In this document: positions 19,949-50,156 of the stretch, in pieces
How the letters are laid out: every line of letters starts with the position of its first letter
How positions within the stretch are numbered: the stretch's first letter is position 1
Assembly: GCA_019359435.1 (NCBI GenBank)
Contig: JAHHHI010000001.1
Coordinates: forward strand, 1 to 50,266
Reading direction: 5' to 3'
DNA: 50,266 bases
From: Kaiparowitsia implicata GSE-PSE-MK54-09C
Lineage (GTDB): Bacteria > Cyanobacteriota > Cyanobacteriia > Elainellales > Elainellaceae
The notes under the pieces: generated by a model
Databases searched by the model: none
Told to the model about the DNA's origin: nothing
The model's input: only the letters and a program-made list of their open reading frames with translations
Position numbers and translations under genes: made by a program

Positions 19949-20629
19949 CTATCCCCGCAATACATAGCCAACGCTGCGCACCGTATGCACTAGGCGCTTT
20001 TCGTCCTGAGCTTCGAGCTTGAGTCGCAGATAGCGAACATAGACTTCAATAATGTTTGAGTCACCCATAAAGTCGTATCCCCAGACCTTTTCTAAGATTT
20101 GGTCGCGGGTGATGACCTGACGAGGATGGCTGATTAAATACTCCAGCAGATCGAATTCTTTGGCCGTAAGCTCAATCGCGCGACTGCCCCGAAGCACCTC
20201 GCGAGTTTGCCGATTGAGGCTGAGGTCTTCGTATTCCAGCAAATCTGGATTTTCTTCTTGATTGCGGCGCAGGTTTGCCCGAATGCGCGCCATTAGCTCG
20301 TCAATGCTGAAAGGTTTGACCAGGTAATCGTCAGCACCCGCATCTAGCCCATCGACGCGATCGCGCACCTCATCTCGAGCCGTCAACATAATGACCGGTA
20401 CCTTGTTCCCTGTAGAGCGCAGCCTGCGGCACACGTCGAGGCCCGTCATGCCGGGGAGCATCCAGTCCAGCACGAGAAGATCGGGTGTGGCCTCACGGAT
20501 CATCGACAGCCCAGTAAGGCCATCGTGCGCCACACTGGTTTGGTAGCCTTCGGCGGTGAGCTCTAGCTCAATAAACCGAGCCAGCTTAATCTCGTCTTCA
20601 ACCAGCAGAATGTGGGGGTTCGGAGTCAT
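19949..20629 (-). CDS. OmpR/PhoB-family response regulator
   Basis: 226 residues from ATG 20629, chosen because GAGGT lies 6 bases upstream. The receiver domain (about 5-120) has the acidic pair ED at 11-12, phospho-acceptor Asp55 in [20 protein letters not shown], and the conserved Lys in [19 protein letters not shown]. The OmpR-type winged helix follows (IELTAEKFDLL-like region, then [20 protein letters not shown]). It is a DNA-binding transcription factor. The kinase gene directly upstream overlaps it by 32 bases but lacks its ATPase domain, so phosphorylation would have to come from another kinase. It resembles cyanobacterial ManR-like regulators, but I do not assign that name. Confidence 0.93.
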
Positions 20630-21653
20630 AAGCACCTCGAGAGGGATAGGAAGAGGAGGGTGAAGAGGCTCGGGGGTCAGTGGAGATGGCGTCTGACCGC
20701 GCATCGTTGAGCATGGTTTGCAGCAGATTGATAATGTGTTCGGCTTCGTCTTGGGCGATCGTCAGCGCCTCTTGCTGGGCCTCGGTGAGGTTGTCGCCGC
20801 GCCGCGCCACGCTCTGCAAGTAGCCGTAGACTAGTGTGAGGGGTGTGCGCAGGTTGTGCGAAAGCTGAATGGTGAGGTCGCGCTGCCACTCGCCCGTTTT
20901 GAGCAGTTGAGTTGAGAGGCGATCGCACAGGTTCACAAGCTCTCGCAGCTCTTCAGGTAAATCTTCAGGCCGAATTGGCATTTCTTCTGTTGCGGCCGAG
21001 GCTACATCCCATTGCTTGAGGTTGTGTAAGGGCTGGAGCGATCGCCCCACAATCACCACCGCTGCCCCCATCAGCCCGGGCAACACCAGCACCGCTGTCA
21101 GACCCAACAACAGGCTGGTATCTTGCCATAGTTGCTTGATTTCTGTCATATCTTGTACAAGAAATAGCTCTAGCGGCGTGCCATCGGCCAGCATCACAAC
21201 CTGCGCCAGCACGACCACGCGCTGGTCATTAAGGCGATACTCTTCTGGCGTGGGCATTGTGGACGGTAAATCGACCCATTCCACCATCACCGCTTCGGGC
21301 AACTGGGCGAGCTGAGGTGAGGTTGCCAGCACAGCTCCATCCATCGACTTGACCCATAGCCATAGAGACGGCGACGACCACTTATCCACAATGTATTGAA
21401 TGGGATTGGTCGAGGCGGAGCTGGTGTCGATCATCTGCAAATCTTTAATGAACTGATTAGAGACCAGATCCAGATTTTGCTCGCAGCTTTTCACCATCAT
21501 TCGATCCATCGTCCACCGCACTAACGCCCCAACGCCCAGCGCCGTTGGTGCCAAAATTGAAAGGATGCCTGCCAACAACTTTAGCCGCAGCGATGATCGA
21601 TCCATTCCCAACAGTCGGGGGCGAACATGCGATGTAGACGGTGGCAAAATCAT
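20598..21653 (-). pseudogene. sensor histidine kinase lacking its HATPase domain
   Basis: 351 residues: a membrane helix at about 24-46, a periplasmic sensor region of about 130 residues, a second helix at about 180-204, a HAMP-like linker, and HisKA with His266 in LTIQLSHNLRTPLTLVYGYL. After the second dimerisation helix ([16 protein letters not shown]) the frame enters Ser/Pro-rich sequence ([14 protein letters not shown]) that is really the leader of the response-regulator gene. It stops at 20598, inside that gene. The N, G1, F and G2 boxes of the ATPase domain are absent. An internal deletion of about 350-450 bases around 20695 best explains this. The product could be phosphorylated in trans at most. 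ATG 21605 is an alternative start. Confidence 0.8.
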
Positions 21654-49484: not shown

Positions 49485-50156
49485 TCACTGTCGATATGCA
49501 CAGTGGGGCGCTTGGGTGCGCATCACAGGCAGCGCCAGCGTAATCGTGGTGCCCTCGCCCCAATGCGACTCACAGGTCAGTCGGCCATTGTGCTTATCCA
49601 CAATAGTTTGATAACCGTTGGCTAACCCCAGCCCCGCTCCTTGACCCACAGGCTTAGTGGTAAAAAACGGCTCAAAAATGTGAGGCAGATGCGTTTCGGG
49701 AATGCCGCAGCCGTTGTCACGGATGTGAATTACGGCCCAAGCTCGACCCTCGTCGATGATAAGCTCTGTAGTGAGCCAGAGTTGGGGCGTCCAGTCTGCC
49801 GGTTTCTCTACGGCAGGGGGAATATCGAGCGGCGGTGGGGCGATCGTCCCCGGTGTTTGGGCCGATGCTATGGCCGTGAGTTGGCGGGATGGGCGATCGC
49901 TAAGGCAATGGTGCAGCGCATCCAGCGCATTACTAAGAATATTGAGAAAGACCTGGTTAATATCGCGTGGGTAGCACAGCACCGCCGGTAGGCTGCTGAA
50001 CTGACGATGGACTATGATTCTGGGATTGGACTCCTGCAATACCAAACGGTGCTGCAACAGCATCAGGACACTATCTAAACCTTGGTGCAGATCGACCGCT
50101 TTCAGATCTGCTTCATCGAGCCGCGAAAACACCCGCAGGGCTAGGGCTGATTCACT
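49485..50156 (-). pseudogene. histidine kinase, 3' part, cut by an insertion element
   Basis: The frame reads SESALALRVFSRLDEADLKA, then the end of a dimerisation segment and a complete HATPase domain: NQVFLNILSNALDALHHCLS (N box), IRDNGCGIPETHLPHIFEPF (G1/F), and GAGLGLANGYQTIVDKHNGR (G2). The frame closes at a stop upstream of about 50156, next to the ISAs1-type element. The His-bearing helix and sensor domains are therefore missing from this side and may continue beyond the element outside the window. This type belongs to the class with FFTTKPVGQGxGLGL in which the kinase core follows GAF or CHASE sensors. Confidence 0.75.

Follow-up and report, generated by a model that had tools for sequence, protein, structure and literature searches.

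Proteins that combine a HisKA domain with no HATPase domain form a class that is already described in archaea. In the accessible portions of the respective papers, an earlier census noted a HisKA-without-HATPase family in Archaeoglobus (PMC1183210), P2CS places such proteins among phosphotransfer proteins or treats them as incomplete kinases (PMC2716373), and archaeal "HisKA, no HATPase" proteins are treated as non-enzymatic histidine kinase-like proteins for which phosphatase activity is raised as a possibility (PMC5847659). In the HisKA kinases CrdS, HK853, HK4262 and HK1190, substitutions at the residue following the phospho-acceptor histidine (H+1) abolished kinase and not phosphatase activity, the latter needing Thr or Asn at H+4; the substitutions given in the available text were A, D, G and Q, with Asn not among them (PMC3510030). 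Phosphatase assays have been reported for a construct named HK853-DHp, the CA content of which is uncertain because the same partial text also credits it with kinase activity (PMC5727384). RocA of group A Streptococcus is a membrane kinase-like protein without kinase activity, and complementation by a form lacking CA is cited in the accessible part of PMC7028121.

The window analyzed here is a stretch of 50,266 nucleotides (positions 1 to 50,266 of contig JAHHHI010000001.1, assembly GCA_019359435.1) from the cyanobacterium Kaiparowitsia implicata GSE-PSE-MK54-09C. Its minus strand carries a two-gene unit of a membrane-sensor protein of 351 aa (hereafter, the window protein) and an OmpR-type response regulator of 226 aa. 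Like the archaeal proteins in the accessible text of PMC5847659, the window protein has a sensor part and a HisKA domain with the conserved histidine and lacks a HATPase. In contrast to them, it is bacterial, lies beside its ancestral partner regulator, apparently descends from a full kinase such as its relatives have and lacks the H+1 acid as well, the archaeal proteins being compared without their H+1 residues. With the engineered kinase-minus, phosphatase-plus (K-P+) mutants CrdS E372A and HK853 E261A it shares a lost H+1 acid and a kept H+4 Thr or Asn, but those are laboratory point mutants, and removal of the CA domain is unmentioned in the available part of PMC3510030. RocA, as described in the accessible text, has a putative CA domain without key residues and targets the kinase CovS (PMC7028121), whereas the window protein adjoins its partner regulator. 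Our literature search, with subscription literature mostly outside it, found no description of the locus or of a comparable bacterial case, and the search on split or truncated kinases and domain-less phosphatases returned nothing related.

A sensor protein without an ATPase domain and its neighboring regulator

The window protein is encoded by an open frame at 20598..21653 (minus strand). By Pfam, residues 259-322 match HisKA (E 1.1e-10), the dimerization and histidine (DHp) domain, encoded at 20688..20882 (minus strand), with the profile matched almost to its end; no HATPase match was found in the window protein, and the same search on two relatives returned both HisKA and HATPase_c (E 1.2e-29 and 1.5e-28). 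The sensor part was recognized solely by alignment with relatives. A HAMP-like linker, proposed in the sequence-only reading of this DNA, found no backing in the window protein, which has no HAMP match by Pfam, and one of the two relatives gave a weak match below the Pfam cut-off (E 0.019). The fold model of the window protein alone was poor (mean pLDDT 52.8, with the DHp part mostly 40-50).

Downstream of the HisKA domain, the final 29 codons and the stop form a junction (20598..20687, minus strand) that runs through the leader of the regulator gene and in which the alignment with 29 relatives revealed no residue-level likeness to them. With its stop at 20598, the kinase-like frame overlaps the regulator gene, whose ATG is at 20629, by 32 bases (20598..20629, minus strand). 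The regulator gene itself (19949..20629, minus strand) is intact: its product gives full Response_reg and Trans_reg_C matches by Pfam, is 81% identical to its best relatives and has the receiver Asp, Thr and Lys and the winged-helix output of the OmpR family. It retains E11/D12, D55, T83 and K105, which we take to be the key receiver positions. The sequence-only reading had described just this arrangement, a kinase without its ATPase domain that runs with a 32-base overlap through the leader of a regulator with all key residues, and in these respects it was accurate.

In a phmmer search, the His box stretch aligned with histidine kinases of known structure, including 2c2a, presumably a structure of HK853, and 3dge. 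The latter is HK853 according to the available portion of PMC5727384. Both the phmmer comparison and the alignment with relatives place the phospho-acceptor position at His266 (codon 20856..20858, minus strand), the residue already named as such. The adjoining H+1 codon (AAC, 20853..20855, minus strand) encodes Asn267 where 29 of 29 relatives have Glu, a replacement that was missed in the earlier reading and that by the genetic code takes at least two base changes. Thr270 at H+4 (20844..20846, minus strand) is kept, as it is in all 29 relatives. Elsewhere in the same genome, Glu occupies H+1 in each of the 30 HisKA loci examined out of 77 others (28 found by pattern and two by eye, one of the two without the histidine).

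Compared with an active HisKA kinase, the window protein has the HisKA domain with its histidine and lacks both the HATPase (CA) domain and an acidic H+1 residue; with HATPase absent and the H+1 acid lost, two separate lesions have therefore hit autokinase function. It falls into the "HisKA, no HATPase" class, having a sensor part, a HisKA domain with its histidine and no recognizable HATPase, and, by residues only, it matches HisKA-type phosphatases in keeping the histidine and a Thr or Asn at H+4. Within its own genome, 76 of the 78 HisKA matches are followed on their own strand by a HATPase match no more than 900 bases away, and the two exceptions are the window protein and locus L082 (contig C59, L082:2194-3939, minus strand). 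The latter, a HisKA by Pfam (SHELRSPL), was rejected as a second HisKA-only protein, since by eye it appears to join a ROK-type sugar kinase to HisKA, followed by a seemingly degenerate ATPase part.

Relatives and the ancestral operon

The kinase-like protein was searched for in 60 genomes, its own included, and gave matches at E<=0.001 in 59, many of them generic kinases; 29 loci from other genomes (L002-L030) were aligned. A HATPase part is present in 29 of 29, in frames of 448-564 aa (in L028 the contig start truncates the frame), and this alignment with orthologous kinases, proposed earlier as a check, makes a deletion on the side of the window most likely. Because the relatives carry roughly 155-175 residues beyond the end of the window protein, the loss amounts to about 500 bases instead of the 400 first estimated. 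A regulator match (64-81% identity) lies beside the kinase in 27 of the 29 loci, the exceptions being L012 and L024, and in L015 it is on the strand opposite to the kinase.

At the order level, the kinase was found at E<=1e-20 in 27 of 36 genomes, its own included. Thirty of the 33 non-own regulator matches with at least 67% identity share their contig with a nearby kinase match, G016 being one of the 30; of the other three, L049 adjoins a HATPase piece, L047 has no kinase match and L048 lies at a contig end. The HATPase was seen directly in L002-L030, L034, L049 and L050, and the remaining copies were judged by the length of the open frame. The regulator is also present in 25 of the 26 other kinase-bearing genomes (exception G035, 77% complete) and absent from eight of the nine kinase-less ones (exception G034, 68% complete). 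Since kinase and regulator go together in this way, the window most likely lost its HATPase from an inherited kinase-regulator operon, as judged from these comparisons.

No other short version was found in the order search of 36 genomes, nor among the matches listed in the class search (388 genomes, 212 matching), where those from other genomes have open frames that span 427-564 aa and in one case contain a stop within the match; weaker matches, including G016, lie outside those listed. A 295-aa frame in G016 was considered as a second truncation and rejected, being a frame break only, with the HATPase in another frame downstream; the break in this kinase (L034:3108-4576, plus strand) falls shortly past the His box. 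The genus is represented in the set by one genome, and a scan of named genomes with the kinase found no relative.

Constraint on the kinase-like protein and the readings it allows

Trees were built from 27 sensor-DHp sequences and, alongside, from the regulators. The end branch of the window kinase (2.15) is the longest in its tree, 2.5 times the next (0.85), and that of the window regulator (0.93) is second to 0.99 and followed by 0.86. The ratio of kinase to regulator mean distance is also highest for the window (1.79 among 27), but the next value is 1.68, so that by this measure the relative speed-up of the window kinase is modest. In columns conserved in at least 80% of sequences, the window protein retains 11/24 in the sensor, 8/11 in the linker and 27/35 in the DHp part, each the lowest of 30 sequences; in columns conserved in at least 90%, it retains 9/13 in the sensor and 20/23 in the DHp part (both second-lowest) and 7/7 in the linker. 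The three DHp changes in this last set are E267N, L314M and L317D.

We compared this divergence with neutral simulations of 324 codons (400 histories for each of three settings, substitutions without indels). The first stop appeared at a median of 18-19 substitutions, and 99% of histories were stopped by 101-119 substitutions, equivalent to 62-74 amino-acid changes. The window protein differs from its best-matching relatives at 62-66% of positions with its frame open, and most of the divergence therefore arose under selection for an open frame. The open frame does not date the deletion itself, since this divergence may have come before or after it. An earlier suggestion that the locus is newly broken is disfavored for the locus as a whole, because a second kinase-killing substitution and an end branch 2.5 times the next are found without a stop; it may still apply to the deletion alone, which is possibly recent and later than the substitution.

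The favored reading, to which we give an even chance on the sequence evidence, is that the window protein is a kinase-dead sensor that dephosphorylates or traps the adjacent regulator, the latter receiving its phosphate from elsewhere. The gene would encode a membrane sensor joined to a DHp domain; with neither an ATP-binding domain nor the H+1 acid left, it would no longer autophosphorylate; the conserved DHp helices would still bind the adjacent regulator and, under control of the sensor, would remove its phosphate or hold it; and the regulator would obtain phosphate from a different kinase or from a small phosphodonor. The retention of His266 and Thr270 while the H+1 Glu has become Asn suggests a function of this kind. 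The isolated DHp domain of EnvZ is reportedly a phosphatase. The longest end branch also fits relaxed selection, however, and the deletion may have come after most of the divergence. More tentative, and short of an even chance, is the narrower proposal that a bacterial two-component kinase has evolved here into a dedicated signal-controlled phosphatase, with the ATPase domain and the autokinase residue lost and the regulator re-sourced. If true, it would provide a natural counterpart, beside its own regulator, of the laboratory kinase-minus/phosphatase-plus mutants, would allow a simple test of HisKA-only proteins as phosphatases, so far only suggested in archaea in the accessible text of PMC5847659, and would illustrate a step by which regulators turn orphan.

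The chief competitor is decay, in which kinase function is lost, the gene is drifting and the regulator, under other inputs, is a future orphan. We regard it as less likely but as a serious rival, because related regulators exist without an adjoining kinase match: the search found no such neighbor in L047 (genome G009), L084 (a Leptolyngbyaceae MAG) or L085 (Synechocystis salina), or within about 760 bases upstream of the regulator in L086 (a Paraprochloron MAG), and of the four named loci with at least 64% identity (L084, L085, L086 and L102) a kinase is present in L102 only. The longest end branch and the lowest conservation of the set likewise fit decay. Against it, the frame is open without a stop, the DHp and linker columns are largely retained, and only some 50-75 amino-acid changes (95-99% limits) would be possible without constraint.

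That His266 is instead phosphorylated in trans by another kinase, with the phosphate passed on to the regulator, appears improbable. His266 and the DHp domain are kept, and of the 96 matches to HATPase that the genome gives at E<=1, 20 lack an immediately preceding HisKA match, although these 20 will include non-kinase ATPases; the H+1 position, Glu in all 30 HisKA loci examined of the 77 others, is nevertheless Asn. Trans-phosphorylation, the rewiring conceived in the sequence-only reading, is disfavored because the acid replaced by Asn at H+1 is required for autophosphorylation in four HisKA kinases, according to the available text of PMC3510030.

An assembly or sequencing artefact that dropped the HATPase is very unlikely, even with a draft genome of 109 contigs and a contamination estimate of 4.41%. 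The junction stretch occurs once in the genome, and the HATPase part of a relative, searched against it, gave 74 matches, the best with 43% identity in a different kinase with its own HisKA. No lost orthologous HATPase piece was recognized elsewhere in the assembly, the absence being unproven because the assembly is a draft. Neither the change at residue 267 nor the long branch is part of the gap, and an assembly gap would leave residue 267 unexplained. Least credible of all is ribosomal +1 frameshifting within the overlap, which would fuse the sensor-DHp part to the regulator as a membrane-bound hybrid: the regulator frame is open for 44 codons upstream of its own ATG, into the kinase-like frame, and the overlap contains C runs, but an open stretch of such length would be common by chance, the regulator has its own start and the relatives show no fusion in any of their 26 same-strand pairs.

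Regulator homologs and additional observations

The regulator homolog of Synechocystis salina (L085) is 64% identical to the window regulator and has 224 aa and a single cysteine, Cys65; its neighbor genes likewise hint at sll0396. On the basis of length and Cys65, the Synechocystis counterpart of the regulator is likely Rre28 (sll0396), for which the available portion of PMC4361706 tabulates the same length and the same lone cysteine position. The S. salina homolog differs from the window locus in having no adjoining kinase match. The related kinase in L102, from a Brasilonema angustatum MAG (L102:2859-3998, plus strand), has 380 aa and is apparently without most of the external sensor, with the HATPase kept. 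In L014 the regulator gene is broken into two frames (L014:2808-3559, plus strand).

The kinase tree has two main groups. In each of six genomes (G012, G025, G027, G020, G029 and G031), both the kinase and the regulator of this type are matched twice. In the genome of the window, a HisKA on contig C77 (L075, 78199-78390, minus strand) has Gln replacing the phospho-acceptor His (AQELRTP), and near the contig end of the window itself a 215-aa frame (49485-50132, minus strand) has a HATPase match without a HisKA match.
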